From: an uncultured Prevotellaceae bacterium
GTDB taxonomy: Bacteria; Bacteroidota; Bacteroidia; Bacteroidales; Bacteroidaceae
DNA length: 64,000 bases
Direction: 5' to 3'
Assembly (NCBI GenBank): GCA_947305005.1
Contig: CAMZCM010000009.1
Span: 1-64,000, forward strand
In this document: in pieces, positions 28,061 to 50,484 of the stretch
How the letters are laid out: every line of letters begins with the position of its first letter
Position numbering within the stretch: position 1 is the stretch's first letter
The notes under the pieces: generated by a model
Seen by the model: only the letters and a program-made list of their open reading frames with translations
Told to the model about the DNA's origin: nothing
Databases searched by the model: none
Translations under genes and position numbers: made by a program

Positions 28061-29067
28061 AGCTTATCTTCAATAATATCCGTTAATACATCCTTGATAT
28101 CCAAACCGGCCGCACGTACTTGTTGAGGAATGAAGCTAGTGGCTGTCATACCCGGAGTGGTGTTGATTTCTAACATATTGATACGGTCGTGTTCATGACC
28201 ATCCTCTTCTTTTACCTTCGTGACAATATAGTCAATACGAATAATTCCAGAACAACCAAGTATGTCATAGATGGCACTTGTGAGAGCCTGCACACGATCG
28301 CGCAGGTCATCACTGATGCGTGCTGGTGTGATTTCATCAACCGATCCGTTATATTTGGCATCATAGTCGAAGAATTCGTTGTGAGTTACCACTTCTGTGA
28401 CAGGGAAGACAACCTCTTTTCCTGCGACTTTATAGCAACCGCACGTAAGTTCTGTGCCGGGCATGAATGCTTCCACCATCACCTCATCGCTCTCTTGCAT
28501 TGCCAGACGAATAGCAGGACGGAGTTGGTCGAGTGTTTTCACCTTCGTAACGCCAAAACTGCTACCACCAGCATTGGGTTTCACAAAACAGGGTAAACCA
28601 ATATGCTTTGTAATCTCCTCGTCGGTCACCAAATCTTCGTTGCCTTTACGAACGACCAGACTTTCACTGACACTTACACCAAATCCTTTCAGATATTGAT
28701 TCAGAGTAAACTTATTGAAAGTCATAGCTTCTACGAGCACATCACTAGTGCTATAAGGCATATGAATAAGATCAAAGTATCCTTGTAAGATACCGTTCTC
28801 ACCCGGTGTTCCATGAATGGTAATGTAAGCGAAGTCAGGATGAACAGTTCTGCGTCCGACTTTGAAGGAGAAATCCTCACGACTAACAGATACCCGCTTG
28901 TCATTTTCGAGATGTGCTTCCCAAACGAGTCCTTTCAGTTCAACTATAAAAACCTCAAATCGCTCTTTGTCGAGGAAACTGTAGATGCCTTGCGCACTAC
29001 GCAAACTGACATCATGTTCAGAACTGTCTCCACCGCAGACGATGGCTATTATTTTTTTCTTATCCAT
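28057..29067 (-). CDS. ddl: D-alanine--D-alanine ligase
   Basis: A 336-residue ATP-grasp enzyme that makes the D-Ala-D-Ala dipeptide for peptidoglycan. GGDSSEHDVSLRSA near residue 12 is the N-terminal signature. HGTPGENGILQGYFDL near 85 matches the family glycine loop, PCFVKPNAGGSSFGVTKV the ATP-binding lysine region, and MLEINTTPGMTATS the metal/substrate end motif. It overlaps the pseudouridine synthase upstream by 8 bp and the acyltransferase downstream by 4 bp. Confidence 0.95.
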   Translation of the reverse strand: MDKKKIIAIVCGGDSSEHDVSLRSAQGIYSFLDKERFEVFIVELKGLVWEAHLENDKRVSVSREDFSFKVGRRTVHPDFAYITIHGTPGENGILQGYFDLIHMPYSTSDVLVEAMTFNKFTLNQYLKGFGVSVSESLVVRKGNEDLVTDEEITKHIGLPCFVKPNAGGSSFGVTKVKTLDQLRPAIRLAMQESDEVMVEAFMPGTELTCGCYKVAGKEVVFPVTEVVTHNEFFDYDAKYNGSVDEITPARISDDLRDRVQALTSAIYDILGCSGIIRIDYIVTKVKEEDGHEHDRINMLEINTTPGMTATSFIPQQVRAAGLDIKDVLTDIIEDKL

Positions 29068-31821: not shown

Positions 31822-31858
31822 ACACGTATATGCGCAGATGCGCATATACGTGTTTTTT
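31822..31858 (+). terminator. Intrinsic terminator of efp
   Basis: A 15-bp perfect stem (31822-31836 with 31839-31853) around GA, ending in a run of six T. It is the strongest terminator in the window. Confidence 0.9.
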
Positions 31859-31957: not shown

Positions 31958-34900
31958 ATGTTATCACTTTTTTTCAGAAGTAAGAGGGTGCTGGGGGCCT
32001 GCCTTTTCTTAGCAACAACCAGTTTCTCTTTTGCACAAGAACCACAGGGAGGACAAAAGCCCACGTCCGTACCTATACAAGGAGTCGTACCACAACGACC
32101 AGCGCCTATTACTGCCAATCAATTAATTATCAGCGGTGTTATCAAAGACACACAAGGCGAAACGTTGCCTGGTGCGAACATCCGTATTCGCGAGACCCAA
32201 GCAGGCGCTGTTGCCGATACTGATGGTAAGTTTACTCTTGCCGTACCCAAGGGACAATCCATTACTGTCGAATTCTCCTTTGTCGGCATGAAAGCACTGA
32301 TAAAAAAGTATGACGGCAAGAAAAACTATACCAACCAAGTCATCGTCCTTTCCGAAAGTGGAGATTTGGAAGAAGTGGTTGTTACGGGTCTGTTTGACTA
32401 TAAGTCCTCTACTTTTACAGGATCTACCGCCTCATACACGCAAGAGGAGTTGAAGATGGTCGGTAACTCTAATGTCTTGAAAATTATTCAGTCGTTAGAC
32501 CCGTCGTTCGTTGTGGATATGAACAACCTGATGGGTTCTAACCCGAACTATATGTCAGACATTACCATTCGTGGTAATGCATCCTTCGCAGGCCTGCAAG
32601 GAGAATATAGCGGCAACCCTAATGCGCCCCTGTTCATCCTTGATGGCTTCGAGGCTACCCAGCAACAGATCTTCGACCTCGACATGAACCGTATCAAGAG
32701 TGTTACCATTCTGAAAGACGGTGCTGCAAAAGCAATCTATGGTTCCAAGGCCAGTAATGGTGTGATTGTCGTCGAAACAATCCTTCCTGAAGCAGGTCGG
32801 CTCCGCATCACCTATACTGGAGACCTCAACGTAGAGGTTCCAGATTTGACAACTTACGATTTGACAAATGCGGCCGAGAAGCTACAAGTAGAGAAGCAAT
32901 CCGGACGTTACACTTCCAGTACACCTTATTATCAAGCTCTTCTTGATGAACAATATAATGCCATTGCCGCCGACATTGCCCGTGGTGTTGATACTTATTG
33001 GCTATCACAGCCCCTACGTTCAGGTGTAGGTCACAAACATACCGTTTATGTCGAGGGTGGCACTGAGGAGATGCGTTATTCTGCCAACCTGATGTACAAC
33101 AATGTTGCAGGTGTGATGAAGGAATCTTCTCGTAATACCCTTTCTGGTAATATCAACCTGAGTTATCGCTATAAGAAATGGATGTTCCGCAACCAGCTCT
33201 CTGTAACAGGGAATCGTGCCGATGATAGTCCCTATGGCACTTTCTCTGACTACACAGCTGTCAACCCTTACTTCACTTCCACCGACGAGAACGGTAACAT
33301 TCAGAAGATTCTCGGAACCTACACTTCCCCTGGAACCAACGGCAGTACTCTGACATATTACAACCCACTTTATAACGCTACAATCGGCACCAAGAACTTC
33401 TCAAAATACACCGAAGTCGTGGAGAACTTCTATTTGGAGTATCGTCCCATCACAGACCTTCGCTTTACAGCACGTCTCGGTTACACACATCAGAACAACA
33501 AACGTGAGGATTTCTATCCTGGCGATCACACTCGTTTTACGGAATGGACGGGTGACCGCTACTTCCAGCGTGGCAGCTACGCCATTACCAACGGCGAGAC
33601 GAATAGCCTCTCTGTGGACCTCACGGGAAATTATTCCCACACATGGGACAAACACATGCTCCTTGCTAACGCCGCCTATTCTCTTCAATCACAAAATGGA
33701 AACACAGAAGGTATGACCGCATGGGGATTCCTCAACAACCACGTCGATTACATCACTTTTGCCAAGCAATACGCTGAAGGCGGCAAGCCATCTGGTTCCG
33801 AGACAACCACCCGTTCACTCGGCATCACGGGCGCAGCCAACTATAGTTATGATGAGCGTTATCTGGCAGATGTGAGCCTACGCTTCAATGGTTCCTCTGT
33901 TTTCGGAAGTGACAACCGTTGGGGAACGTTCTGGAGTGCAGGTATCGGTTGGAACCTCCATAAAGAACATTTTATGAAGAATGCCGACTGGCTTTCTCTT
34001 TGTAAGTTCCGCGTTACTTATGGCCTTACGGGTAACCAAAACTTCTCTCCTTACCAAGCCAAAGCTACTTATAAGTTCTACGACAGTATCATCTACGATA
34101 ACATCTCGGGCGCTTACTTGATGGGAATGCCCAATACCAATTTGAAATGGCAGCAGACAGGTGACTTCACCATCGGTCTTGACCTCGGCTTGTGGAAACG
34201 CTTGAACCTGCGCTTCGACTACTACGACAGTCGCACCCGTGATGCCCTTATCGCTATGACCATTCCCACATCAACAGGCTTCACCTCTTACATGGAGAAT
34301 CTTGGTAATGTACAGAACCGTGGTATCGAAGCCACGGCCAACTGGCGTTTCTTCCAGAAGGGGCAATCATATATGAGTATCTCCGGTAGTATTGCACATA
34401 ATGTGAACAAGGTCACAGACATCAGTGATGCCCTTAGCAACTTCAATCGCGGACAGGATGCAGAGAACACCACATCTCCCATCATTCGCTATGAAGAAGG
34501 GCAGTCTATGACTGCCATTTGGGCTGTACAGTCTTTGGGCATTGACCCTGCTACAGGACGTGAGCTATTCTTGAAAAAGGATGGCACTCGCACCTTCACC
34601 TACACAACCGATGACTACATCATCGCCGGTGATTCCAATCCCAAAGTACATGGCACTTTTGGATTCAACGGAGAATACAAGGGTATCGGTCTGAGCCTGC
34701 TCTTTAGTTATCAGTTAGGTGGTGACTACTACAACCAGACTCTTGTGGATCGTGTGGAAAATGTGAATATTGCCAACAATGTTGACCGTCGTGTTTTCAA
34801 CGACACATGGAATGCATCTGGTGATGTAGCGCTCTACAAACATATCTCCGCTACACCCACCACCACCTATGCCTCCACGCGTTTTGTCCAACGCAACAAC

Positions 34901-35095
34901 ATGCTGGATCTCACCAGCCTGTCAGCATACTACGACTTTAAGCACTGCACGTGGTTACGCCGCGTCGGTATGGAGCGCTTACGCGTGACTGCTTACATGA
35001 ACGATGTCTTCCACCTCTCCACCATCAAGGCAGAACGAGGCCTGAGCTACCCCTATGCTCGCACCTTCTCTCTGTCCGTGACAGGAACCTTTTAG
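31958..35095 (+). CDS. SusC/RagA-family TonB-dependent transporter
   Basis: A 1045-residue outer-membrane protein. After a signal peptide (to about FSFAQ, residue 27) comes a carboxypeptidase-like regulatory domain (SGVIKDTQGETLPGANIRIRE) and a TonB-box-like EEVVVTG. The plug follows (DITIRGNASFAG, LFILDGFEA, ITILKDGAAKAIYGSKASNGVI-type block), then a 22-strand barrel to the terminal aromatic Phe. SusC proteins import ligands captured by the partner SusD using TonB energy. The open frame begins at TTG 31919, but that lies in the promoter; ATG 31958 is the likely start. Downstream proteases point to peptides as cargo, as for RagA of Porphyromonas. Confidence 0.92.
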   Translation: MLSLFFRSKRVLGACLFLATTSFSFAQEPQGGQKPTSVPIQGVVPQRPAPITANQLIISGVIKDTQGETLPGANIRIRETQAGAVADTDGKFTLAVPKGQSITVEFSFVGMKALIKKYDGKKNYTNQVIVLSESGDLEEVVVTGLFDYKSSTFTGSTASYTQEELKMVGNSNVLKIIQSLDPSFVVDMNNLMGSNPNYMSDITIRGNASFAGLQGEYSGNPNAPLFILDGFEATQQQIFDLDMNRIKSVTILKDGAAKAIYGSKASNGVIVVETILPEAGRLRITYTGDLNVEVPDLTTYDLTNAAEKLQVEKQSGRYTSSTPYYQALLDEQYNAIAADIARGVDTYWLSQPLRSGVGHKHTVYVEGGTEEMRYSANLMYNNVAGVMKESSRNTLSGNINLSYRYKKWMFRNQLSVTGNRADDSPYGTFSDYTAVNPYFTSTDENGNIQKILGTYTSPGTNGSTLTYYNPLYNATIGTKNFSKYTEVVENFYLEYRPITDLRFTARLGYTHQNNKREDFYPGDHTRFTEWTGDRYFQRGSYAITNGETNSLSVDLTGNYSHTWDKHMLLANAAYSLQSQNGNTEGMTAWGFLNNHVDYITFAKQYAEGGKPSGSETTTRSLGITGAANYSYDERYLADVSLRFNGSSVFGSDNRWGTFWSAGIGWNLHKEHFMKNADWLSLCKFRVTYGLTGNQNFSPYQAKATYKFYDSIIYDNISGAYLMGMPNTNLKWQQTGDFTIGLDLGLWKRLNLRFDYYDSRTRDALIAMTIPTSTGFTSYMENLGNVQNRGIEATANWRFFQKGQSYMSISGSIAHNVNKVTDISDALSNFNRGQDAENTTSPIIRYEEGQSMTAIWAVQSLGIDPATGRELFLKKDGTRTFTYTTDDYIIAGDSNPKVHGTFGFNGEYKGIGLSLLFSYQLGGDYYNQTLVDRVENVNIANNVDRRVFNDTWNASGDVALYKHISATPTTTYASTRFVQRNNMLDLTSLSAYYDFKHCTWLRRVGMERLRVTAYMNDVFHLSTIKAERGLSYPYARTFSLSVTGTF

Positions 35096-35230
35096 AGTGA
35101 AAAGTGAAAGCATGAAAAGTGAAAATAAAAGTTTCATTAGAAATAATCAATGACAAAGAAAACTCCAATAAAATATATGAAAAGGTGTAAGGGCAGCGTG
35201 AAAAGTAAATCTTATTTTTCACTTTTCACT
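35096..35230. repeat. GTGAAAAGTGAAA-type repeat forming an inverted pair around the SusD start
   Basis: The left arm (35114-35128, preceded by a second copy at 35096-35109) is nearly the reverse complement of 35212-35227. The loop of about 83 nt contains the SusD start codon, and the right arm encodes part of the SusD signal peptide. A related word occurs twice at 46877-46905. Confidence 0.7.
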
Positions 35231-36649
35231 CTTTCTTTTTTCATTCTCGCCTTATTGGCGAGTTGCAACTCGTGGCTCGATGTTCAGCCGCGTTCACAGG
35301 TTGAGGACACGGAACTCTTTGAGACGGAAAACGGCTACAAGGAAGCCCTTGCGGGTGTATATTCTTCTATGGTTTCCTCAAAGACCTATGCCAAAGAGAT
35401 GACATTCGGTTTCATTGGCATCCTCGGTCATGAATGGGACTTTTTTTATGATGCCCAGTACAAGGACGCTGATGCCTTTGACTACGAAGCATCTCTCCCT
35501 ACTGGTTACATCCGCGATATTTGGGCCAATAGCTATAGCGGCATCGCTAATGTCAACAACTTGTTGGCACATATTGATGATCATCCAAGTCTCTTCTCAC
35601 GTGATAACCACGATGTCATCAAAGGTGAGGCGCTGGCACTGCGTGCATTCCTGCACTTCGATCTTCTGCGCTGCTTTGGCGTCAGTTTCGCTGTCAACCC
35701 TGACCAACCATCCATCCCTTATTCTACCGGTCTTTCCTATCACGTCTTCCCACAGTTGACGGTACGTCAGGTAGCAGAGGCCGTAAAGACAGATTTACTA
35801 CAGGCGGAAGAATTGTTGAAAGGGGCCGACCCCATTGTTACAGGACGCAAGATCGATGAAACTACAGACAACGGCTACCTGCTTAACCGTCAACTTCATC
35901 TGAATTACTATGCCGTCAAGGGATTGCAGGCGCGTCTCTATATGTGGATGGGAGAATATGATAAAGCGCTGGCAGCAGCAGACATCGTCATCAATGACAA
36001 CAAATTCCCATGGGCTGATGTCACACAACTTCAATCCGGCTATGACCGTTCGCTGGCTACAGAGCATCTTTTTGCTCTCAATAACCTGACACAGGAGACA
36101 GATATTGCCAACCGCTACTTTGACGAAGGCTCACAATATTCGTTTGCTGTCACCCAACCCCGTCTGTTGGAATATTTTGACAATGCTACTCAGGACTATC
36201 GATACACCTTCCTCTTCAAGGCTGATGGTGGCACAAATATTCAGAACCGCTATCTCCGCAAATACGATACTCCGGCATCCGGAAGTGACACCTATTATAA
36301 ATATAAGATGCCGCTCATGCGCATCTCAGAAATGTATCTGATTCGTAGCGAAGCCTATCACCGTAACGGTGATGACACTCAAGCCCGCGCAGCCCTCAAC
36401 GAACTGCGTCAGGCACGTAACTTGCCTGCATACACAGCAACGACTATGCCGACCGACTATGACCTGGAACTCATCCGCGAGTATCGTCGTGAGTTCATCG
36501 GTGAGGGGCAATTGTTCTTCCTCTACAAACGCCTCAACCGCACCACTATCCTCTATGCCACCATTGAGGATGCTGTAGCGTCAAAGCTCTATACTTTCCC
36601 ACTTCCTTTGACAGAGACGGAAGCTGCCCAACGTGAAGAGAACAAGTAA
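35150..36649 (+). CDS. SusD/RagB-family surface lipoprotein
   Basis: A 499-residue lipoprotein with lipobox LLASC (Cys39) and the SusD N-terminal pattern WLDVQPRSQVEDTELF. The TPR-like region has GEALALRAFLHFDLLRCFG, and the C-terminal RISEMYLIRSEAYHRNGD to LELIREYRREFIGEG is the usual end. It caps the SusC barrel and captures ligand at the cell surface. The signal peptide region is encoded by AT-rich repeat DNA. The ATG at 35150 was kept; 35177 is an alternative start. It overlaps the next open frame slightly. Confidence 0.92.
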   Translation: MTKKTPIKYMKRCKGSVKSKSYFSLFTLSFFILALLASCNSWLDVQPRSQVEDTELFETENGYKEALAGVYSSMVSSKTYAKEMTFGFIGILGHEWDFFYDAQYKDADAFDYEASLPTGYIRDIWANSYSGIANVNNLLAHIDDHPSLFSRDNHDVIKGEALALRAFLHFDLLRCFGVSFAVNPDQPSIPYSTGLSYHVFPQLTVRQVAEAVKTDLLQAEELLKGADPIVTGRKIDETTDNGYLLNRQLHLNYYAVKGLQARLYMWMGEYDKALAAADIVINDNKFPWADVTQLQSGYDRSLATEHLFALNNLTQETDIANRYFDEGSQYSFAVTQPRLLEYFDNATQDYRYTFLFKADGGTNIQNRYLRKYDTPASGSDTYYKYKMPLMRISEMYLIRSEAYHRNGDDTQARAALNELRQARNLPAYTATTMPTDYDLELIREYRREFIGEGQLFFLYKRLNRTTILYATIEDAVASKLYTFPLPLTETEAAQREENK

Positions 36650-36692
36650 GAGCAAACAAAAAAAACAAAGTAATCAACTGAAAGTAAAAGCC

Positions 36693-37490
36693 ATGCGCAT
36701 ACTTCATACATCATACTTTTTACATCTCACATCATACATTGCAATCGCCATTGCCACTGCGATGATGATTGCTTGTTCCCATGAGGAAGTCTCCACCTAC
36801 GACACCTCTGTTACAGGTTTGGACATCTGGTTGGGAAATAGTTCGGGTGCAGTTTATGAATCTACAAGCTACAATTATTCCTATGCCTTTGAAGAAGGAG
36901 GCGTCACCTTCTATGCCCAAATTAGCGGTATGCCCGTTGACCACGACCGCACATTCCATTTGGAACTCTTCGGCGAGGATGCTGAGATTGCTCGTTCTTC
37001 TGTGAGATTAGAAGATTATATACTACCAGCCGGAGCTGTCAGCGGCACCTACAAAGTCTATTTCAACACGCAGAAACTGTCAGACCCAACCCTCTTCACT
37101 CAGACCGACGGTCACGTCAGTTTCTGCTTAGTTCCCAGCGACGATTTCATGATTGGTACAGAGAATCATCAACAGTTCACAGTCGTCTTGAAGAACTATC
37201 TGGCCAAGCCCGATAACTGGGACACCGCTAACTTTCCTCACATGGCACTCTCCAAGTTCTTCGGCACATACAGTCGTGTGAAATATCAATTTATGATTGA
37301 GCATCTCCATATCGTGGATTTTGATGTGAACTACAATGCGCGCACTAGCTATGATGAGGAAACCAATGTCGTTTCCTACTCCTACGTCACCTCTTATCTG
37401 GTGCAAGTCATGCAGCAGGCCCTCAAAGAATACAACTCCACCCACGAAACGCCTCTCACCGACGAGTTCGGAAATCCCGTGGAATTCTAA
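36693..37490 (+). CDS. DUF4843 lipoprotein
   Basis: A 265-residue lipoprotein: signal MRILHTSYFLHLTSYI followed by hydrophobic AIAIATAMM, with lipobox Cys and HEEVSTYD. The body has GLDIWLG, a beta-sandwich half (ITFYAQISGMPVDHDR-like) and the AKPDNWDT and FGTYSRVKYQFM motifs typical of DUF4843, a family that follows SusD in many Bacteroidota loci and is probably a surface ligand-binding accessory. The frame is open from 36633 inside susD; ATG 36693 gives a clean signal peptide and was chosen. The signal peptide is written in simple CATCATACAT repeats. Confidence 0.78.
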   Translation: MRILHTSYFLHLTSYIAIAIATAMMIACSHEEVSTYDTSVTGLDIWLGNSSGAVYESTSYNYSYAFEEGGVTFYAQISGMPVDHDRTFHLELFGEDAEIARSSVRLEDYILPAGAVSGTYKVYFNTQKLSDPTLFTQTDGHVSFCLVPSDDFMIGTENHQQFTVVLKNYLAKPDNWDTANFPHMALSKFFGTYSRVKYQFMIEHLHIVDFDVNYNARTSYDEETNVVSYSYVTSYLVQVMQQALKEYNSTHETPLTDEFGNPVEF

Positions 37491-37504
37491 TAAAACTATA
37501 GAGA

Positions 37505-39139
37505 ATGAAACATCTGACATCATACATCTTACATCTGACATCAACCATTGCAATAGCAATAGCTTTGACCGGCTGCTATGCAGACGAGGGCAACTACACA
37601 TATCATGAGCTTGATGCCGTAGGCATTGACACCATCGGTACAGGGTTACAGGCCAAATATGCTATCATGCGCTTCGATGAACTTGACCTGAATCCCAATG
37701 TCGTCTTCAATGGCCAAATTGTGACTCAGGAAAGCCAAGCTCCATTGGACTATCTATGGACCATGTACAGCGCCGTTTCCGGCACAGGTGCCAGTACCTT
37801 GATAGACACCCTCGGTTATGAACGTCATCTCAAGACCACCATATCCCGTTCTAGTGGTAATTACTACGTTCAACTCACCGTTACCAACCGCAACGACAGC
37901 ATCCGTCAGTTCTGGCGCGTGCCAGTGTCTGTCAGCGAAGTCTTCGACGGAGGTTGGATGGTGTTCTACGAGAGGGCCGATGCTGCAGGGTACTCCGACG
38001 TCGCCCTTGTTGTCAACCCTTGGACCAAGTTGAATTCTTTAGAAAACCATTGCTATACAAATCTCTACCTGTCCACCAATGGTGAGATGCTGAAAGGCAA
38101 GCCCATACGCTGTCTGGACATCGCCGTATCACTGGGACCTGGTAATAATTACATAGGCCTTTGCACAGACTATACCATGGTGGGCGTGAGTGAGAATGGC
38201 ATTGAGAAAGCTCTGGATTTCAACGACTTCTTCCATCAGCCACCCGCCACGATGGCACCCACGTGGTACGGCGAACATGGCTCCGGTGTGATGTCTGGAC
38301 AAAGTTCCGAGATTCTTATCAACGACAATCGTGTCTATACTAACACCTATACATATAGTGCCACAGAAGGTCGCACGACACGCTTCAGCGTGCCCAAAAC
38401 CGACAATGGCATCGGCACGTTAGCAGCTTGGAATTCTGAGGTGCCCAACACCCTCAACTATGGTGTTATCGTTTACGATCAGACCAACACCTGCTTCCGT
38501 TTTGCCGCTTACAACGGCTCCAGCTTGGAAAGATTTGGGGAGCAAAAAACTGATGCAGCATTTGATGTCAACAATACTGGTATGACGTTGTTGATGGGCG
38601 ACTGGGGCAAAGGTCTTTCTCAAGGTGTGGGTTTGCGCCCATATGACTATCTGTTAATGGCTAAGGGAACCCAACGTTATCTTGCCAAGGCTAATTTCTC
38701 CACAACCCAAGCGAATAGTGATAACATCGGCGTAGGTCTCTATCTTATGGATAATCTCTGCCCTGACATCGTCAACGCGACTACCTTCGCCGCCAGCCAT
38801 GTCGGTAGCTTCATTTACTATGGTACTGGTGACAAAGTCTATAATTTTGCTTACGACAGTAATCTTCCTGCTACCGTCGCTTGGACGGCGCCGTCTTCCG
38901 ACGAAGAAGTGACCTGTGTGCGCATCATGAAATACTACCACGGTGCCGTCTATGGCTATGGCATGGTGCCTAGCTCTGACAACCTTGTGCACATCGCCAC
39001 ATGGAACGCCACTACACAGCAGGGACATCTCTACGAGTACCTTATCAACCCAGCCAGCGGCATCCTTGACGAGACCTCATCCTACGACTATTCTATCCCC
39101 GGCCGTGTCAAAGATATGGCTTGGAAATTCTTCATGTAA
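37505..39139 (+). CDS. PKD-like family surface lipoprotein
   Basis: A 544-residue lipoprotein with lipobox LTGC and ADEGNYTYHELDAVGID just after it. Two Ig/PKD-like domains occupy about 30-150 (PLDYLWTMYS, YVQLTVTN) and a large beta-propeller-like C-terminal region follows (GGWMVFYERAD, ARDNLVHI-like repeats). This is the PKD-like lipoprotein usually paired with DUF4843 beside SusC/D. It probably binds ligand outside the cell. It starts 14 bp after the previous stop, and its signal peptide shares the ACATCTGACATC repeat word with the previous gene. Confidence 0.75.
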   Translation: MKHLTSYILHLTSTIAIAIALTGCYADEGNYTYHELDAVGIDTIGTGLQAKYAIMRFDELDLNPNVVFNGQIVTQESQAPLDYLWTMYSAVSGTGASTLIDTLGYERHLKTTISRSSGNYYVQLTVTNRNDSIRQFWRVPVSVSEVFDGGWMVFYERADAAGYSDVALVVNPWTKLNSLENHCYTNLYLSTNGEMLKGKPIRCLDIAVSLGPGNNYIGLCTDYTMVGVSENGIEKALDFNDFFHQPPATMAPTWYGEHGSGVMSGQSSEILINDNRVYTNTYTYSATEGRTTRFSVPKTDNGIGTLAAWNSEVPNTLNYGVIVYDQTNTCFRFAAYNGSSLERFGEQKTDAAFDVNNTGMTLLMGDWGKGLSQGVGLRPYDYLLMAKGTQRYLAKANFSTTQANSDNIGVGLYLMDNLCPDIVNATTFAASHVGSFIYYGTGDKVYNFAYDSNLPATVAWTAPSSDEEVTCVRIMKYYHGAVYGYGMVPSSDNLVHIATWNATTQQGHLYEYLINPASGILDETSSYDYSIPGRVKDMAWKFFM

Positions 39140-39166
39140 TTACAAAACTATTAAAAACATACGATT

Positions 39167-40318
39167 ATGAAAAAGTTAATGACTTTGATGATGTGTCTGA
39201 TGACCACTTCCGTGATTATGGCACAGGTCGCTTTCGAGCCCGAAGGTACCACCTTAGAACAAGCATCTGCCAAAGCAAAAGCTGAGAACAAACTCATCTT
39301 CATCGATTGCTACACGCAATGGTGCGGCCCATGCAAGAAGATGTCGAAAGAGGTCTTTCCTCAGGCTTCTGTAGGCGATTACATGAATCCTAAGTATGTC
39401 AGCCTCAAACTGGATATGGAGACACCCTATGGTGCTCCCCTCGCCAAGAAATGGCAGATTCAGGCCTACCCCACTTTCATGATTCTTACCGCTGATGCAC
39501 AAGAGATTAACCGTTTCCTCGGTTTTCATGCTCCTGACGATTTTATCAAAGTGCTCGACGAGAAGAGTAAGGACAATTCCTCAGGACCGTTACAGGCACG
39601 GTGGAAGAGCGGCGATCGCGACCCTCAATTCCTGATGGAATACCTGCAGTCACTCAACGCCTCTTACAAAGCTGATGAGGCTAACGACGTGGCCGAGGCT
39701 ATTCTCGATGGCAAGGAAGAGACCTTCGCTGCTGACAGCACTCTCCGCATGGTCTTCCTCCGCAACATCACCAACCCCTTCGCAAAGAGCTTCAAATATA
39801 CCATGCAGCATCCTGAGGCTTTGAAGGCTGCCGTGGGCGAGACCCTCGTGCAGATGAAGACAGGTAATGTTCTCATGGCCTTCCAGCGTCAGCTCATCAA
39901 CGAGGCCGATGGCACAGCCACCCTCGACCAAGAACGTTATGATGCATTCAGCAAGCTCCTCGACGAGCTGGGCGTGGTCAACGCCGACCACTATCGTCTG
40001 CAGACGCTCATCACATTATCCGAGAAACAGAAAGACTTTGCCGCTTATCTCAACTATATCCGTCAGTATCTGGCTAATCCCGCCCTCGATGCTACAGATA
40101 TGCAACTGGCTCAATGGGCTAAAGCGATCACGCCCGAGACGGATAAGCTGTATAAAACGCAGATGCAAGCTATCCTTCGCCATCGCCTCAATGATATCCG
40201 CGAGGGCAAGCGTGAGCCCCAGAGGATGGTCGGCAATATGAAACTCTCCGCTCCCACCGATCAACTTCTGCAAATGATTATCGACGCTATTGACGGAAAG
40301 ATGCCCACTAAGAAATGA
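39167..40318 (+). CDS. Secreted thioredoxin-fold protein
   Basis: A 383-residue protein with signal peptide (to about MAQ, residue 20). The thioredoxin domain at about 25-135 has FIDCYTQWCGPCKKM, with the redox pair Cys53/Cys56 (CGPC), and the cis-Pro AYPTFMIL. The C-terminal 240 residues are helical and unrecognised. It may reduce or isomerise disulfides in exported substrates or keep the neighbouring proteases active. It overlaps the zinc protease by 4 bp (ATGA). An extra Cys48 lies just before the active site. Confidence 0.8.
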   Translation: MKKLMTLMMCLMTTSVIMAQVAFEPEGTTLEQASAKAKAENKLIFIDCYTQWCGPCKKMSKEVFPQASVGDYMNPKYVSLKLDMETPYGAPLAKKWQIQAYPTFMILTADAQEINRFLGFHAPDDFIKVLDEKSKDNSSGPLQARWKSGDRDPQFLMEYLQSLNASYKADEANDVAEAILDGKEETFAADSTLRMVFLRNITNPFAKSFKYTMQHPEALKAAVGETLVQMKTGNVLMAFQRQLINEADGTATLDQERYDAFSKLLDELGVVNADHYRLQTLITLSEKQKDFAAYLNYIRQYLANPALDATDMQLAQWAKAITPETDKLYKTQMQAILRHRLNDIREGKREPQRMVGNMKLSAPTDQLLQMIIDAIDGKMPTKK

Positions 40319-41856
40319 GGAAGATTCTTCTTTCTTTAGCAGTTATTGCCGCGTGTTATGTCCATGCACAGCAGACCCTTTACGGTCTGCTCATGGAAGA
40401 TGATTTCCTGACCAGGAAGACCGCCTACACGTTGGCCGAAGGTGATACCCTTGCCTTCGACGATCTGCGTTTCTATATCAATCACACCGACGGCACCCAG
40501 GAACGGGGTAACTATGCCCGTGCTGATTTCTTTCTCTTCCGCCAGCCGGATATTGCGCTTTACAAGCCCAACTACCTTCGGTCCAACGACTTCAACAGCA
40601 CGAGCAGCCAATGGTGCTTTGACCGTTCACAACAGTCCGATCATTTTGTAGTCTTCTGGGAATCGGGCTTTGGCACCAATCCTACAAAGGCAGCCCCCAA
40701 CTACGCTTTCGACCCCGATGACTTGCTCGCACGAGCCGAAAAAGCTTACAAGGTCTATACAACTCAGCTAGGCTTCGTCAATCCTGCTACCTCTGAGACA
40801 CTGAAGACCTACAAGATCGCCATCTTCGTGCATTACACCACCACTTGGCGCGCCACAGGTTCCGGAGTGGACTTCAAATCAGGCACCCTTGATGTGAATC
40901 CTGCCGCCTCCAAGAATGTGATTACTACCGCCCACGAGATCGGGCACACCTTCCAGTACATCGTCAGCTGTGACTTTGACGACCATCGCAATCACGGCTG
41001 GCAGTACGGCTTTGAAGAAAGCGCCACAGGCCTGTGCGCCTGGTGGGAGAGTTGTGCGCAGTGGCAAGCCTATAAGGTCTATCCTGAGAAAAAGTTCATT
41101 GAGAGTTGGGAGACACATATTTACCTCTGGCCCCACTTGAACTTGCTCCATGAGAGAATGCGCTACTACAATTTCTTCGTTCAGGACTACTGGTGCCAGC
41201 TTCATGGTGAGGATTTCATTGGACGACTTTGGCGCGAGAGTGTGAAACCCGAAGATCCAGTGGAGGCGTATTGTCGTCTCACGGGCACCAACCACGAGAG
41301 CTTCTGCCGCGATATGTTTGATTACGCCTGCCGCGCCATTACATGGGACATTGATGCCATTCGTGAGTATGGCAGCCGTCGCACCGACCGCTTCTCCACC
41401 TCCATGCATTTAGTTACTGTTCCTGAGGATTCTTCCGAAGGTTTATGGTGGCAGGTAGATTCAGCCAACTGTCCTCAAAACTACGGCTTCAACATTATCC
41501 GCCTGAGCGTTCCTGTCGCAGGCACGACGGTCTCTGCCGACTTTCAGGGCATCGCCGGTGCTGCCGGTTATCGGGCGGTTAAGACAGACAAGGCAGGTTG
41601 GCGCTATGGCTTTGTGGCTTTGCAGGAAGATGGCACGCGTGTTTATGGTGACATGTTTGCGGAACCGACCGGAAAGGCCAGTTTCACCGTCCCTGAACAA
41701 ACAAAAAAGCTTTGGTTCGTTGTCCTCGGTGCACCTACCGAACATTGGCACCACCCCTGGGACATGGGAAATGATGATGTGTTCACAGCTGCTAATCTCG
41801 CCGATGATGAGCAATGGCCCTATCGTGTCCGATTCATCGGCGCCAACCGTAACTAA
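40315..41856 (+). CDS. Secreted zinc metalloprotease-like protein (HEIGH; DUF6055-like)
   Basis: A 513-residue protein with signal peptide (cleavage after VHAQ, about 19). The motif ITTAHEIGHTFQY places the gluzincin-type HExxH at His207-Glu208-His211. Downstream EESATGLCAWWESCAQW supplies a further possible Glu ligand, and the C-terminal beta domain begins near residue 360. The IAIFVHYTTTWRATGSG region fits the DUF6055 group of Bacteroidota. It is probably a secreted peptidase that produces peptides for the SusC/D pair. Catalytic assignment rests on the motif alone. It lacks a lipobox. Confidence 0.72.
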   Translation: MRKILLSLAVIAACYVHAQQTLYGLLMEDDFLTRKTAYTLAEGDTLAFDDLRFYINHTDGTQERGNYARADFFLFRQPDIALYKPNYLRSNDFNSTSSQWCFDRSQQSDHFVVFWESGFGTNPTKAAPNYAFDPDDLLARAEKAYKVYTTQLGFVNPATSETLKTYKIAIFVHYTTTWRATGSGVDFKSGTLDVNPAASKNVITTAHEIGHTFQYIVSCDFDDHRNHGWQYGFEESATGLCAWWESCAQWQAYKVYPEKKFIESWETHIYLWPHLNLLHERMRYYNFFVQDYWCQLHGEDFIGRLWRESVKPEDPVEAYCRLTGTNHESFCRDMFDYACRAITWDIDAIREYGSRRTDRFSTSMHLVTVPEDSSEGLWWQVDSANCPQNYGFNIIRLSVPVAGTTVSADFQGIAGAAGYRAVKTDKAGWRYGFVALQEDGTRVYGDMFAEPTGKASFTVPEQTKKLWFVVLGAPTEHWHHPWDMGNDDVFTAANLADDEQWPYRVRFIGANRN

Positions 41857-41890
41857 TACCTTATTCTTCTTGATTAAAATACTATCATTC

Positions 41891-44134
41891 ATGACTAAAC
41901 GTTTAATCTTTCTATTCTGTCTCTGTACTATATTCAGTACTACAATCATACGTGCCGACGAAGGCATGTGGCTCTTGGGTAAAACAGATCCGAAAGCGAT
42001 GGCGGTAGCCCGCAGCCTCGGCCTCCAACTCTCTGACGACCAGCTTTATGGCGAGGATGGAATGAGCCTTAAGGATTGCGTAGTGGATTTCTCCGACTAC
42101 TGTTCTGGTGTCATTGTGAGCGCCGACGGTCTCCTCTTCACCAATCACCACTGTGGCTTCCGTGCCATCCAGCAACTCTCAACGCCCGAAGATGATATCT
42201 TGCGAAATGGTTTCGTGGCTCACTCCTACGCAGAGGAACGTCCAGCCAAAGATATCTTCGTAAAGATTTGGCAGCGCACGGTTGATGTCACCGAGCAGGT
42301 GCGTCATGAGCTGGACAGCATCTATGCCAGTCGTGGAAAGCGCTTGAAAGAAAAGGAGAAAGCACAGATTTACGCCGATTACATCGGTGGCATCCTCAGC
42401 AGCATTGCCTCTCGTGCTGAGATACAGGCTGAGAAGGAAGGTCGCCTTGGCGTCGTCTGCGACTGTAAGTCGTTCTACGGTGCATCGGTTTTCTACCTCA
42501 ACGAATACAAACAGTATTCCGATGTGCGCCTCGTCTTCACCGTTCCCCAGTCATTGGGCAAGTTCGGTGGCGACACCGACAACTGGATGTGGCCGCGTCA
42601 GACTGCCGACTTCAGTGTGTTCCGCGTTTATGCCGACAGCCTCGGACAACCGGCTGAGTACAACGAGAAAAACGTGCCCTTACACCCGAAGCGCTGGGCA
42701 AAGGTGAGCCTCGATGGTTTCACACAAGGCGATTACTGCATGACCATCGGCTATCCAGGCAGCACCAGCCGTTACCTCAGCAGCTACGGTATCAGCGAGC
42801 GTGTCGGAACATCGAACGCCTCCATGATCCAGGTGCGTGGTAAGAAACAGGATGTGTGGAAACGTTGGATGCGCGAAGACCGTTCCGTAGGCATCAAATA
42901 TGCTTCAAAATACGCCGGTTCATCAAACTATTGGAAGAATTCACAGGGCATGAATGAGGCTATCAAACGCCTTGGCATCATCGAGAAAAAGCAGCAACGC
43001 GAACAAGAGATCCGACGTTGGTACACTGCCAACACTGAGCGCAAAACACGCTTTAACCAGATGTTTCCGATTCTGAAGAAAGGTTACCATTCTCGTTACA
43101 ATGCCCGCTATGCCTACTGCTTCATGAACGAGACGTTCTTCCGCGGCATTGAAATTCTCACTTTTGCCAAGCTGGTAGAGAGCTACAACAGAGCCATCGG
43201 TGATGGCAAGCAGAACCTGCTGGACCACATGCAGAATGCCTATAAGGACTACGACGCTCGTGTTGACGAAGAGACAATGGCTGTGCTTCTGGAGAACTAT
43301 GCTGAACAGGTGAGCAGCAAGTATCTGCCACGTTTCTACGGCGATATCCACAAGAAATACAAGAACGATTACCGTGCCTTTGCCCACGAAGTCTTTGCCA
43401 AGAGCAAGCTCACTAGCTACGAGGGTTGGTATCAGCTGACTCACGCCAAAGTGCGCTCTTCCATTCATTACGAAGATTCCTTGGAACAGTCACTGGCCGA
43501 TCAGAAAGCCTACGAGACCTATGTGAACAGCGATCCTGCCGTCAGTCTGGCTCAGGCCGTGACAGACATGGTGAACAGCGTGATTGCCAAGCCGCTCAAC
43601 GAGCCCGCTGCCAACATCTCCTACAACGAGAACCTACTCACACAGGCTGTCCTTGAGATGGAAATGGAGCAACCCCACTACAGCGATGCCAACTTCACCC
43701 AGCGCATGAGCTTCGGCATCGTCAGCGACTACACCAACGCCGGCACTCACCACGATTTCCTCACCACAATGCCCTCGCTGATTGAGAAGATTGAGAAGGG
43801 AAAGGACAATCCTGATTATCTGGTAGAAGCCGAGGTACTGAAGTTGCTGAAATCGGGTGACTACGGTCGCTATGTTGACCCCAAAACAAAACAACTGCCC
43901 CTCTGTTTCCTCACCACCAACGACATCACAGGTGGCAACAGCGGTAGTCCAATGTTCAACGGCAAGGGTGAACTTATCGGTCTCGCCTTCGACGGCAACT
44001 GGGATGCCCTCTCCAGCGACATTAGCTTTGACAGCGCCCTCACCCGTTGCATCGGCGTTGACATCCGTTTCGTCCTGTGGCTCATTGAAAAATGGGGCAA
44101 AGCAGACCGTCTCGTACAGGAAATCCTAAAATGA
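41891..44134 (+). CDS. S46-family dipeptidyl-peptidase, DPP7 type
   Basis: A 747-residue exported peptidase with a signal peptide (to about RADEG). The chymotrypsin-like triad is visible: TNHHCGF (His86/87), GGDTDNWMWPR (Asp 228-230) and GGNSGSP (Ser684). The S1 pocket residue in AFDGNWDAL is Gly702, the position that is Gly in DPP7 (hydrophobic P1) and Arg in DPP11 (acidic P1), so DPP7 specificity is expected. It releases dipeptides in the periplasm. The frame is open from 41558 within the previous gene, but ATG 41891 starts the signal peptide. Fifth gene after susC-susD. Confidence 0.9.
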   Translation: MTKRLIFLFCLCTIFSTTIIRADEGMWLLGKTDPKAMAVARSLGLQLSDDQLYGEDGMSLKDCVVDFSDYCSGVIVSADGLLFTNHHCGFRAIQQLSTPEDDILRNGFVAHSYAEERPAKDIFVKIWQRTVDVTEQVRHELDSIYASRGKRLKEKEKAQIYADYIGGILSSIASRAEIQAEKEGRLGVVCDCKSFYGASVFYLNEYKQYSDVRLVFTVPQSLGKFGGDTDNWMWPRQTADFSVFRVYADSLGQPAEYNEKNVPLHPKRWAKVSLDGFTQGDYCMTIGYPGSTSRYLSSYGISERVGTSNASMIQVRGKKQDVWKRWMREDRSVGIKYASKYAGSSNYWKNSQGMNEAIKRLGIIEKKQQREQEIRRWYTANTERKTRFNQMFPILKKGYHSRYNARYAYCFMNETFFRGIEILTFAKLVESYNRAIGDGKQNLLDHMQNAYKDYDARVDEETMAVLLENYAEQVSSKYLPRFYGDIHKKYKNDYRAFAHEVFAKSKLTSYEGWYQLTHAKVRSSIHYEDSLEQSLADQKAYETYVNSDPAVSLAQAVTDMVNSVIAKPLNEPAANISYNENLLTQAVLEMEMEQPHYSDANFTQRMSFGIVSDYTNAGTHHDFLTTMPSLIEKIEKGKDNPDYLVEAEVLKLLKSGDYGRYVDPKTKQLPLCFLTTNDITGGNSGSPMFNGKGELIGLAFDGNWDALSSDISFDSALTRCIGVDIRFVLWLIEKWGKADRLVQEILK

Positions 44135-44676
44135 CCATGCATCCCTTAGCACAATTCAAATACTGTCCCAAGTGCGGTTCACCGCGTTTTGTGGAGCACA
44201 ACGGCAAGTCCAAGCACTGCGAGGACTGCGGCTTCACCTATTATTTCAATCCTTCTGCCGCCACTGTTGCCTTGATTGTCCACAACGATGGGCGATGGCT
44301 CTGTGTACGTCGTGCCAAAGACCCAGCTAAGGGAACCCTCGACCTACCCGGCGGTTTCTCGGACATGTTTGAAACCAGTGAACAGGGAGTGATGCGTGAA
44401 GTAAAAGAGGAGACGGGACTCGACATCGACCGCGTGGAGTTCCTCTTCTCTGTTCCTAACCAATATGAGTATTCCGGTTTCCTCGTGCACACCATTGATA
44501 TGTTCTATCGCTGTCACGTGAAGGATGCCGAGACCAATCCCGCAGTCTTCGAAACAGCCCGTGCGGCCGACGATGCCGGTGAACTCCTTTGGCTGCGTCC
44601 TGAAAACATTCGTCCTGAGGACTTCGGGCTCCTCAGTATTCGGCGTGGTGTCACCCAACTTCTCCATAAAGGCTAA
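44131..44676 (+). CDS. NUDIX hydrolase with zinc ribbon
   Basis: A 181-residue cytoplasmic protein. YCPKCGS and HCEDCGFTYY give a four-Cys zinc ribbon (about residues 9-32). The Nudix box GGFSDMFETSEQGVMREVKEETGLDI starts near residue 74 and keeps the REVKEE metal ligands. It resembles NADH pyrophosphatase-like or ADP-ribose-type Nudix proteins but is shorter than NudC. Its ATG overlaps the S46 stop (ATGA), so it is translated with the peptidase operon although no functional link is obvious. Confidence 0.85.
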   Translation: MTMHPLAQFKYCPKCGSPRFVEHNGKSKHCEDCGFTYYFNPSAATVALIVHNDGRWLCVRRAKDPAKGTLDLPGGFSDMFETSEQGVMREVKEETGLDIDRVEFLFSVPNQYEYSGFLVHTIDMFYRCHVKDAETNPAVFETARAADDAGELLWLRPENIRPEDFGLLSIRRGVTQLLHKG

Positions 44677-46941: not shown

Positions 46942-48195
46942 ATGAAGAAAAACTATGTTTTCTATTTCGTGATCATGCTCGTCATGGTTTCCTGTGGCTC
47001 CAGCCGTCATGCTACGCGTCAGCAGAGAGAACCTGATGTGAGACAAACCACTCTGGATAAGACCGTTCCGCACAAAGAGGTGACCACGACTTATCCCTCG
47101 AAGAGTAAGAAAACTCTGAAAAGCAAGCCGCAGTTGGCTGAGCGTATTGACAGCCTGATTTATTCGGCTGATACGTTGCTGCAGTTCTCCCAACTCGGAA
47201 TACACATCGTGGATCTTACGACCGGACAGGTTGTCTATACGCGCAATGCAGGCCACCGTATGCGTCCAGCTTCCACAGAGAAACTGGTGACAGCCATCTC
47301 CGCCCTTGACATCCTTGGGCCTTCCCATCAGTTTTCTACGCAGCTGCTGTCAACCGCGTCCTTAAGTGGCGGAACACTGCAGGGCGACCTATATATTAAA
47401 GGTGTGATGGACCCATTGCTCACCACAGCCGATGTCCGCACTTTGGCCAGTCAGCTCAAAGCTGCAGGCATCCGTCGCATCACAGGCCGTCTTGTCGCTG
47501 ACGCCTCCTTCAAGGATGCTGACGAGCTGGGGTGGGGCTGGTGCTGGGATGACGAAAATCCCACCTTATCGCCTTTGCTCGTCAACGGGAAGACCGGTCT
47601 TCCTGCAGCCTTGCTCAATGCGCTGAAGAACGTAGGCATCACTGTTAGCAAGGGCACAGTTTCAGGTATCACACCCACCAAAGCCCGTGAACTAGCCGCC
47701 TGTCGCCGTCCCATTACGGCTGTCCTGCAACCCATGATGAAGGAAAGTGACAATCTCTGTGCCGAAGCTGTATTTTATCAATTGGGCAAGACACGCAAGC
47801 AAATAGCACCGCTCATCAACAACCTGACGGGACCTGTTTCCACCATTGCCGACGGCAGCGGTCTCTCCCTTTATAATTACCAGACGCCCGAGACTTTCAC
47901 GCGGCTGCTGACTTACGCCGCCGCTCGTCCTGACAGCATCTTCAATCCTCTCCTAGAAGCCCTGCCCATTGCCGCTGTTGACGGCACGTTGAAGAAGCGC
48001 ATGGCCGATACGCCTGCTGCGGCCAATGTTCGCGCCAAAACAGGCTCTGTTTCAGCTGTCTCCACCCTCGCAGGCTATACCACCCAGCGTTCCACTGGCC
48101 ACCTCATCGCCTTTGCCATCATGAATCAGGGTATTGAACGCATGGCACAAGGCCGTACCTTCCAAGATCAAGTCTGTATCATACTGAGTGAATAA
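46942..48195 (+). CDS. dacB: D-alanyl-D-alanine carboxypeptidase/endopeptidase (PBP4, S13 family)
   Basis: A 417-residue lipoprotein (lipobox MVSC, Cys19) of the class C penicillin-binding proteins, which trim peptidoglycan stem peptides or cut cross-links. Active-site motifs are ASTEKL with Ser111 and Lys114 (SxxK), ESDN with Ser269 and Asn271 (SxN), and AKTGSVS with Lys366 (KTG). It is shorter than E. coli PBP4 (about 477), mainly because of a reduced domain between the first two motifs. A basic linker follows the lipid anchor. Confidence 0.92.
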   Translation: MKKNYVFYFVIMLVMVSCGSSRHATRQQREPDVRQTTLDKTVPHKEVTTTYPSKSKKTLKSKPQLAERIDSLIYSADTLLQFSQLGIHIVDLTTGQVVYTRNAGHRMRPASTEKLVTAISALDILGPSHQFSTQLLSTASLSGGTLQGDLYIKGVMDPLLTTADVRTLASQLKAAGIRRITGRLVADASFKDADELGWGWCWDDENPTLSPLLVNGKTGLPAALLNALKNVGITVSKGTVSGITPTKARELAACRRPITAVLQPMMKESDNLCAEAVFYQLGKTRKQIAPLINNLTGPVSTIADGSGLSLYNYQTPETFTRLLTYAAARPDSIFNPLLEALPIAAVDGTLKKRMADTPAAANVRAKTGSVSAVSTLAGYTTQRSTGHLIAFAIMNQGIERMAQGRTFQDQVCIILSE

Positions 48196-48252: not shown

Positions 48253-50484
48253 TCACCTAAAAAACACCTTCAAGAACCTACATCCGTGTAATGGGATGGT
48301 GCAGTTGAGTTCGCTTTCAGAGAGATTCTTCTGGCGCCATAGGTCGCGAATTGTTTTAGCAGGCTCTTTTGAGGGGATAAGGGTCTTCATATCCACTTTC
48401 TGGTCTGTGTCGCCGACGTTGAAAATACCTACGGCAATGGCTCCGTCTGCCAACGGACGACTCCATACCTCAATGTCGCCTTCCTTCTGGACGCGGTCGG
48501 CTTGCTTGCCGAGGAGATCCTGATTGATGGCGTTCACCTCATTATTGCAAAGCAGGTTCAGCGTGAAATCATCCATCTGAGCAATATCACAACCGATGAG
48601 CATATTTGAGGAGACAATGGTCCACAGCGTGATATGAGTGTATTGCTCATCAGGTGTCAGACGCGTCTCGCGCAGGCCGTTGGTGTCCTCGCCCAATCCA
48701 TAACCTACTTTACCCACCACCAGCATATCGGGGTCGTTCCAATGGCCGATAGAGGAATATTGGGATTTGCCTAACTGCTGACGGAAACCAACATCAGAGA
48801 TTGACTTCCATGTGTCGTTGATGTCCTGTGACGTACGCCAGCTGTTGCCATCGCAATATAGGCCCCACAGATACACCTTAGTTCCACCCAAGGGACCAAG
48901 GCTGTAGAAGATATCGCGAGGCTGCTGGCGTAAGTACTTCTGCATCAGTAGATGGGGGCGCACACAGCTGGCAAACCCCCAATCGTTTTCCTGAACACGT
49001 ACATTCTCATAGCTGCACCAGTCGTATTTCAAGTAATCCACGCCCCATTTGTTCCAAACCTCGGCGTCCTCCTTCTCGTGGTCGAGGCTTCCGAGATAGC
49101 CACCACAAGTAGTAGCTCCGGGCGAACTGTAGATACCGAACTTCAGTCCGCGCTCGTGGAGCCAATCTACAAGTTCCTTCATAGAGGGGAACTTCTCGTT
49201 TGCATCGAGAGTACCGTCGGCATTGCGTTCAGGAGCCTCCCAGCCATCATCGATGTTGATGTAGCTGTAGCCATAGTCGGCCAGACCTTTGTCGATAAGT
49301 GCCTGTGCCGAGGAAATCACCTTATCCTGCGTGACAGTCAGTCCCCAGCAGTTCCACGAGTTCCAACCCATAGGGGGCGTTTGGCCTATCATGTCTGCGC
49401 CCACCTTCAGCGTGAAGTCTTGTGAAGCCCTACCCTTTGCATTCTCAGCGGTTACGGTGAAAGCCAGGTTAGTTGGTTTGTCTATCTTTCCGCTCAGCAC
49501 GCCGCTTTCTGTCAGCTGGAGCCCTGCGGGCAGGTTGTTACAGGTGAACTTCATAGGCTTTTCACCCGATACGGGGAAGCGATAGATGACAGGGGAACCG
49601 GGACGCACACCCCACACCGGAGCACCATTGAAGCGGGGTGTGATTGGAGCCTTTGGTGTCAGAACGTATTTCAGCTGCTTACTTTCGCTAAGCACCTTTC
49701 CTGTCTTCGCGTCGGTGTAGGTTGCCGTCAGTTGGCACATCTTATCCATATTGTAGGGAACAGACACGCGCACAGGCTTGTTGCGCTTGATGGACAGTCT
49801 TTTGGTCTGAGACATCACCTTAGCTCCCGTCTCGCGGTCTGTAATCGTAACATCCAGCGTCCCTATGGTAGTCGTTAAATAGTCGTTGCAGACTTCTATA
49901 TCATAATGGTACTGTCCGATATTCGTATCCATAAGGCGCATAGAAAGTCCGTCAGCAGCCTTAGGGCAAAAAATCGTCAGAGGATTGTTGTACAAACCGC
50001 CAGAACCACCACGATTATAGACGCGAACAGCAATCACGTTTTCTGCATCCAAGCGGACACCGTCTTTTCTGACATCGACCATATAGTTGCGAACAACATT
50101 ACTAGCAGGGAAATAGCCCGCCGCATCTGTCGGCATACGGCCCGTCGAGCCAATCAGCTTACCATTCAAGTAGCATTCGTCTACATCATCAGCCTTGGGT
50201 ATATTGAAGATAAGAGCATTCTGCTGGTCCGCACCTTGGAATACACTTTTGGGGATATTCACATGAATGCGATACCAACCATATGCCTTCGTATTTTGTG
50301 GAAAGCCTTGCTCATCCCATCTTTTCGTAATGTCAATCTCACTCCAAGAAGCATCGTTCATTTCTGGCTTTGCCCAATCCATGTCATCACCTTGCTTGAA
50401 AAACGCCTTGCTAACACAAATGTTCTGTGCGCTTGCCTGCAGCCCCATCAGAGCCATCAATGCTACTAAATATAGTTGTTTCAT
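48253..50484 (-). CDS. GH27 alpha-galactosidase with N-terminal beta-sandwich domains
   Basis: A 743-residue exported enzyme with signal peptide (to about ASAQ, residue 19). Residues 20-165 resemble a GH2-type sugar-binding beta-sandwich (WYRIHVNIPKSVF, YLNGKLIGSTG). Residues about 285-360 form a putative Ig domain (NLPAGLQLTESGVLSG). The GH27 barrel starts at TPPMGWNSWNCWG. The nucleophile is Asp488 in YLKYDWC and the acid/base Asp is in HWNDPDML (about 581-588). A C-terminal beta domain follows. It removes alpha-galactose from plant galactomannans or raffinose sugars. It stands alone, with no SusC/D. Confidence 0.9.
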   Translation of the reverse strand: MKQLYLVALMALMGLQASAQNICVSKAFFKQGDDMDWAKPEMNDASWSEIDITKRWDEQGFPQNTKAYGWYRIHVNIPKSVFQGADQQNALIFNIPKADDVDECYLNGKLIGSTGRMPTDAAGYFPASNVVRNYMVDVRKDGVRLDAENVIAVRVYNRGGSGGLYNNPLTIFCPKAADGLSMRLMDTNIGQYHYDIEVCNDYLTTTIGTLDVTITDRETGAKVMSQTKRLSIKRNKPVRVSVPYNMDKMCQLTATYTDAKTGKVLSESKQLKYVLTPKAPITPRFNGAPVWGVRPGSPVIYRFPVSGEKPMKFTCNNLPAGLQLTESGVLSGKIDKPTNLAFTVTAENAKGRASQDFTLKVGADMIGQTPPMGWNSWNCWGLTVTQDKVISSAQALIDKGLADYGYSYINIDDGWEAPERNADGTLDANEKFPSMKELVDWLHERGLKFGIYSSPGATTCGGYLGSLDHEKEDAEVWNKWGVDYLKYDWCSYENVRVQENDWGFASCVRPHLLMQKYLRQQPRDIFYSLGPLGGTKVYLWGLYCDGNSWRTSQDINDTWKSISDVGFRQQLGKSQYSSIGHWNDPDMLVVGKVGYGLGEDTNGLRETRLTPDEQYTHITLWTIVSSNMLIGCDIAQMDDFTLNLLCNNEVNAINQDLLGKQADRVQKEGDIEVWSRPLADGAIAVGIFNVGDTDQKVDMKTLIPSKEPAKTIRDLWRQKNLSESELNCTIPLHGCRFLKVFFR

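Follow-up and report, generated by a model that had tools for sequence, protein, structure and literature searches.

We analysed a window of 64,000 nucleotides from an uncultured Prevotellaceae bacterium (assembly GCA_947305005.1, contig CAMZCM010000009.1, positions 1 to 64,000; the window is this whole stretch) and, within it, a SusC/SusD-type locus at 31958–44676 that encodes a thioredoxin-fold protein and a putative metallopeptidase. The host genome is a 2.45 Mb draft in 40 contigs, 85.6% complete. Profile searches identified eight plus-strand genes in the interval, for SusC, SusD, DUF4843, PKD_2, thioredoxin, DUF6055, S46 and NUDIX proteins. An initial annotation, made from the sequence alone, had named the first seven in this order and on this strand; it left the NUDIX gene, which also falls within the interval, unnamed. 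The features are:

31822..31853, +, hairpin resembling a terminator (14-pair stem, T-tail) after EF-P, the left border of the locus
31958..35095, +, SusC/RagA-type TonB-dependent transporter (TIGR04056 with 593 bits, cut-off 368; PF13715, PF07715)
35150..36649, +, SusD/RagB-type lipoprotein lid (PF07980 and PF14322, both above cut-off)
36693..37490, +, DUF4843 lipoprotein (PF16132; ATG at 36693, mechanical open reading frame from 36633)
37505..39139, +, PKD_2 lipoprotein with a PKD-like domain and a beta-propeller (PF16407)
39167..40318, +, thioredoxin-fold protein with signal peptide and CxxC (PF00085 and others)
40315..41856, +, DUF6055 metallopeptidase of modelled gluzincin fold, Svx-related (HEIGH at residues 207–211; the start overlaps the thioredoxin stop by 4 bases)
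41891..44134, +, S46 dipeptidyl-peptidase of DPP7 type (PF10459, 682 bits; ATG at 41891, mechanical open reading frame from 41558)
44131..44676, +, NUDIX hydrolase, partner of S46 (PF00293; ATG at 44131, mechanical open reading frame from 44092)

The three mechanical starts that differ from the ATG given are probably too early. With the starts chosen here the gaps from SusC to NUDIX measure 54, 43, 14, 27, -4, 34 and -4 bases. Since no strong terminator-like site separates SusC from NUDIX on the plus strand (a single weak one, of 5 pairs, lies at 36154 within susD), transcription as one unit is possible; in the scan as a whole, terminator-like sites were not enriched over shuffles (14 sites, 12.4 by chance). 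The adjacent susC and susD homologues identify a SusCD uptake system. As the initial annotation had pointed out, the interval holds no glycoside hydrolase: none of its eight proteins matched such a family or another glycan-active Pfam family, and the locus thus lacks the glycan-active enzymes that characterize a polysaccharide utilisation locus.

The SusC-SusD-DUF4843-PKD_2-thioredoxin module

Conservation was followed in a genus set of 101 genomes, the host's own included, and in a wider set obtained by scanning one genome per species, from which the best 80 of 104 relatives were kept (the 80 module loci); loci cut by contig ends were counted as misses. Across the genus set the PKD_2 lipoprotein gave 13 strong matches (63–100% identity) and 2 weak ones, and strong matches to the thioredoxin (64–100%) occurred in the same 13 genomes, adjoining PKD_2. 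The order SusC-SusD-DUF4843-PKD_2-thioredoxin was retained in the 12 genus relatives (open reading frames were chosen greedily; a false one masked one or two module genes in 4 loci, and 1 locus was cut within SusC). At a threshold of at least 80 bits, the window's SusC, SusD, PKD_2 and thioredoxin were found in 75, 78, 69 and 59 of the 80 module loci, respectively. Clustering placed a thioredoxin-cluster gene in 66 of these loci; seven further ones carry a gene from two other clusters, and the one representative scanned per cluster has a TlpA/AhpC-type thioredoxin fold. The 78 open reading frames of the PKD_2 cluster form 62 groups at 90% identity. Judged by gene content and order, the five genes are a conserved Bacteroidales module, and the thioredoxin is, as had been proposed, a true member of it. 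An aromatic-CxxC motif, mostly CGPC, is present in 64 of the 65 thioredoxin-cluster members of at least 300 residues.

The lipobox cysteine of DUF4843 is nearly invariant in 10 aligned rows and Cys24 of the PKD_2 lipoprotein is invariant in 31, the lipobox pattern being found in 74 of 78 PKD_2 and 62 of 76 DUF4843 members. Because acidic residues follow the lipoboxes, both lipoproteins are predicted to lie at the cell surface. An AlphaFold model of the PKD_2 lipoprotein (pLDDT 86.7) had 4r5o as its best Foldseek match (E 1.5e-12, TM 0.42 of query), with more propellers behind it. Homology of the two lipoproteins to BT2261 and BT2262, which we take to be two extra lipoproteins of the BT2263-64 SusCD system with chains deposited in the PDB, was rejected, as no PDB profile match of this kind was obtained.

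Where records of module relatives name a source, it is mostly ruminant rumen, reticulum, omasum or colon, or another herbivore, with one from horse faeces; the module also appears in records from Hoylesella, Butyricimonas, Odoribacter and Bacteroides pyogenes. Outside the window's genus, FecR (21 of the 80 module loci) and a sigma factor of the extracytoplasmic-function type often precede the module (loci L100–L134). The window has neither, so regulation differs. No published account of a combination of SusC, PKD, thioredoxin and DUF4843 was found among the 15 matches listed, judged by title; literature searches gave one paper for DUF6055 and two for DUF4843.

The S46 peptidase had been annotated as part of the same system, and this assignment did not hold. 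A match to it is present in 84 of the 101 genus genomes, and nine of the 12 module-bearing relatives also have one, on another contig in all nine (these are draft assemblies). Neither S46 nor NUDIX occurs in any of the 80 module loci, and conversely SusC, SusD, PKD_2 and thioredoxin were all absent from 16 S46 loci of other genomes, which served as a control set. The same NUDIX gene adjoins S46 in 11 of these 16 loci elsewhere in the genus and, as the two genes overlap by 4 bases in the window, the pair looks like a unit. We therefore do not count S46 in the conserved system; in the window it is probably a chance neighbour. The enzyme scores best against structures of the Asp/Glu-specific DPP11. 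Its FDGNW, with Gly at PgDPP11 position 673, stands where five aligned DPP11 chains have FDRNW or FDRVW, and by the residue-673 rule set out in PMC8041751 it is therefore of DPP7 type, as had been claimed, with 733 bits against the DPP7 equivalog NF053519 (cut-off 1200 not reached).

The DUF6055 metallopeptidase and its linked sugar enzymes

Residues H207, E208, H211 and E245 of the DUF6055 protein are invariant in 31 aligned rows and make up an HExxH...E pattern, an HExxH motif with a downstream Glu as zinc ligand. Its structure model has a gluzincin-type fold; Foldseek alone was uninformative. On the modelled fold and the invariant motif the HEIGH protein is a metallopeptidase, which agrees with its annotation as a protease, and a DUF6055 protein has been assigned to MEROPS M106 (PMC11241649). 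Against the Svx/AvrXca profile NF040510 it scored 64.6 bits over ~350 residues, without reaching the cut-off of 625, and by this profile match it is distantly related to Svx, a proposed cleaver of alpha-galactosylated plant extensins (PMC9266454, PMC10815107). The HExxH motif and the third Glu are 33 residues apart, outside the X(8,28) of the Svx papers. A Glu at +22, the spacing of Svx (HEXXHX(22)E), is present in the window protein, but was rejected as zinc ligand: several close orthologues do not have it, and E245 is invariant. Judged by eye, the window protein and its nearest downstream orthologues appear to have ordinary signal peptides and no shared lipobox, which makes it more likely that the enzyme is periplasmic or released; the cleavage at the cell surface that had been attributed to it is not borne out.

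DUF6055 was found in 13 of the 80 module loci, downstream of the module in 8 and divergent and fused to GH97 in 5 (locus L115, which clustered with DUF6055 at first, is GH97 plus a GH88-like domain and was removed from the count). Module-linked DUF6055 thus occurs on both sides of the module, in two kinds that are ~30% identical. Changes counted on a tree, which are lower bounds that do not separate gains from losses and omit loci judged cut on the relevant side, numbered at least 5 for downstream DUF6055, at least 1 for the divergent fusion and at least 2 for upstream GH127. By these neighbourhoods DUF6055 is a recurrent accessory of the module and not part of its core, and the originally proposed link between SusCD and proteolysis stands.

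The GH97 domain of the fusion (L042) scored 571 bits with 3a24 and 568 with 5e1q, both retaining alpha-galactosidases, versus 139 for the best alpha-glucosidase. It retains FKVDF, whose Asp we take to be the nucleophile, as in a retaining alpha-galactosidase. Outside the module, 21 DUF6055 loci were collected (20 hand-picked, plus the own genome's second copy), and in 7 of them a GH127-type gene lies 0.5–1.5 kb upstream on the same strand, versus none in the 16 S46 control loci (Fisher p 0.012; the rows are not independent). GH127 also occurs in 6 of the 80 module loci: next to SusC and 0.5–0.6 kb upstream in 4 (L060 and L061 being near-identical), at a distance of 2.3 kb upstream in L074, and a long way downstream in L124. 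The own genome has six GH127 places, and the one with the best score lies 0.5 kb upstream of the second DUF6055 gene. There the GH127-type gene, a gene of 135 codons and the second DUF6055 gene stand in a row (L054, G000:C5, 6868–11468). The GH127-type protein matches PF07944 and carries an ExC...CC motif, presumably a zinc-cysteine site.

With GH97 nearest to alpha-galactosidases and GH127 beside DUF6055, these companions fit an Svx-like cleavage of extensin. They also affect an earlier argument: that the interval is free of glycosidases is correct, but as evidence for peptide use it is weakened, since in some relatives the same module comes with GH97 or GH127.

Cargo, mechanism and competing explanations

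Altogether, we tentatively favour a reading, to which we give close to an even chance, in which the locus is a SusCD importer of peptides or glycopeptides with a DUF6055 partner and, in this genus, is used for hydroxyproline-rich glycoproteins of plants, for example extensins. The five-gene outer-membrane module would capture and import peptides or glycopeptides, and the DUF4843 and PKD_2-propeller lipoproteins probably hold the substrate at the transporter. A periplasmic thioredoxin would keep the imported peptides reduced, while DUF6055, as an Svx-like zinc endopeptidase, would cut the imported chains in the periplasm. The DUF6055 enzymes of the genus may act on extensins and similar proteins together with a GH97 alpha-galactosidase or a GH127 beta-L-arabinofuranosidase, whose genes lie close by in relatives or at other places in the genome. 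The extracellular protease that makes the fragments would be encoded outside the locus; S46/DPP7, which with NUDIX forms a unit of its own in the genus and is found downstream here, may trim products without belonging to the evolved system.

Among published systems the closest parallel is the mucin O-glycoprotein locus BT4240-50 of Bacteroides thetaiotaomicron (PMC11992087), in which a SusC/SusD pair and a protease, an M60-like glycopeptidase, are likewise linked to glycosidases and for which a model of glycopeptide import has been published. It differs in that its M60-like protein is a surface lipoprotein with CBM32, its glycosidases are GH2 and GH109 and its substrate is mucin, whereas the window locus has a DUF6055 protein without shared lipobox, a thioredoxin in its core and no glycoside hydrolase; the main text of that paper contains neither the word thioredoxin nor PKD. 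Another SusCD pair, BT2263-64 (BT_2264 is chain 5fq6), is said there to hold peptide. RagAB of Porphyromonas gingivalis, also a SusCD-type system of the Bacteroidales, imports peptide (PMC11817032, whose main text does not contain the word thioredoxin), but the window SusC is nearer to a dextran SusC than to RagA. With Svx/AvrXca of plant pathogens (PMC9266454, PMC10815107), DUF6055 shares the profile match, the HExxH...E motif and the gluzincin-type fold; it is unlike them in scoring below the family cut-off, in the spacing to the third Glu (33 residues instead of 22), in lacking the W, G and N of the sugar site, and in its setting, a SusCD locus of commensals. Finally, Bifidobacterium longum uses HypBA1, HypBA2 and HypAA on hydroxyproline-rich glycoproteins, the GH127 enzyme HypBA1 being part of its system for the hydroxyproline-linked arabinosides of extensin (PMC7263609). 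That system has an ABC sugar importer and, in the introduction of that paper, no protease is named; here GH127 lies beside DUF6055 elsewhere in the genome and not in the window locus.

Several results weigh against the extensin reading. The solved chain nearest to the window SusC is 8aa4, from the dextran utilisome (E 2.7e-56), and RagA (6sli, E 1.2e-43) comes only after it, so the sequence does not show peptide cargo; import of peptides by the module is plausible. No DUF6055 was detected in 67 of the 80 module loci, some of them cut by contig ends, and the general cargo of the module therefore need not be extensin. One of the 16 S46 control loci (L136) also has DUF6055, 5.6 kb off and on the other strand, and the difference between 13 of 80 and 1 of 16 is not significant (Fisher p 0.45; p 0.09 for the 13 of 47 genus-type loci). 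The extensin substrate of Svx is itself only predicted in PMC9266454 and PMC10815107, and the Svx sugar-site residues W136 and G137 (H-4 and H-3) and N171 correspond to I, T and Q in the window's DUF6055 protein, matched by motif position only. As for the glycosidases, the DUF6055 loci outside the module were largely hand-picked, 6 of the 7 GH127-linked DUF6055 proteins look like one subfamily, and GH97 is present in 2 of those 21 loci versus 1 of the 16 controls, the latter a distant hit of 26% identity. Our GH127 calls, that of the own genome included, are not told apart from GH146 and related families, and the enzymes of GH137, GH142 and GH146 break down pectin at its beta-L-arabinofuranosides (PMC7263609); the GH127 link is therefore a pointer and not a proof. 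GH29 and GH31 lie near a few module loci. The 85.6% complete genome has no member of the proline racemase/hydroxyproline epimerase family (PF05544), and hydroxyproline catabolism by that route was rejected.

The module could instead be a general importer that takes up mixed dietary or host peptides, as RagAB does; DUF6055 would then be interchangeable with several other peptidases and not specially tied to plant glycoproteins. We regard this as possible, if doubtful. It accords with the 67 module loci without DUF6055, with the module in Hoylesella and the other taxa named above, and with the variety of peptidases (M3, M64, M24, S9, C10) encoded close to it in other relatives, a hand-picked set without controls, but it leaves unexplained the recurrence of DUF6055 by the module in the genus, the GH97 fusion and the GH127 neighbours. 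That the locus serves glycan utilisation, with a protease that only uncovers or releases the glycan and an oligosaccharide as cargo, strikes us as improbable. The dextran-type SusC and the GH127, GH97, GH31 or GH29 genes near some module loci would suit it; against this, the window locus has no glycosidase, and its thioredoxin, the most constant enzyme partner, is not obviously needed for oligosaccharide uptake. The chain first proposed, a single evolved system in which the HEIGH protein cleaves at the surface, SusCD imports and DPP7 trims, we consider very improbable. The spacing is tight through S46 with no strong terminator-like site between, and the sole S46 match found in the genome is the one here; yet S46 is missing from every module locus and accompanies NUDIX elsewhere, and the DUF6055 orthologues examined have no shared lipobox. 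Of that proposal, then, the link of SusCD to proteolysis, the thioredoxin and DUF6055 remain, whereas membership of S46 and surface cleavage fall away.

Together, the module and DUF6055 look like a new form of peptide uptake by SusCD, and the proposed link to plant glycoproteins can be tested: the module and the linkage of DUF6055 to GH127 and GH97 offer concrete enzymes for the purpose, with a possible role for DUF6055 and DUF4843. Extensins and similar glycoproteins add stiffness to the plant cell wall (PMC9266454, PMC10815107), and no bacterial uptake route for these proteins in Bacteroidales was found in the titles and abstract starts searched. The broader proposal, that herbivore-gut Bacteroidales have a dedicated route for plant structural glycoproteins made up of the SusCD-PKD_2-thioredoxin importer, DUF6055/Svx-like glycopeptidases, GH97 and GH127, seems to us rather unlikely; if true, a protease family known as a plant-pathogen virulence factor would be a nutrient enzyme in commensals.

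Other genes near the module and the locus

A C10 cysteine peptidase with BspA-type leucine-rich repeats is encoded directly upstream of SusC in two loci (L048:15392–19858 and L095:18–4142), which are probably one genome seen twice. In 9 of the 80 module loci the thioredoxin is followed by a gene of ~460–500 residues with RHS-repeat or DUF4595-like matches (for example L050:4345–5751). An unnamed conserved gene (cluster c5; L055:12872–14089) lies near the module in 25 of the 80; C-terminal parts of its product (within residues 309–405, mostly the last 46–58) have matches at eight further sites in the window's genome and resemble a shared C-terminal secretion signal.

In the window itself, a GH27-type alpha-galactosidase (Melibiase_2) with an Ig-like domain is encoded at 48253–50484 on the minus strand, 3.6 kb past the locus. 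It was rejected as a member of the system, having no match at E 1e-3 in the 138 fetched loci from L039 on, where other window queries do match. The flanks otherwise hold ordinary genes, such as an S13 D-Ala-D-Ala carboxypeptidase (46942–48195) and a D-Ala-D-Ala ligase (28057–29067).

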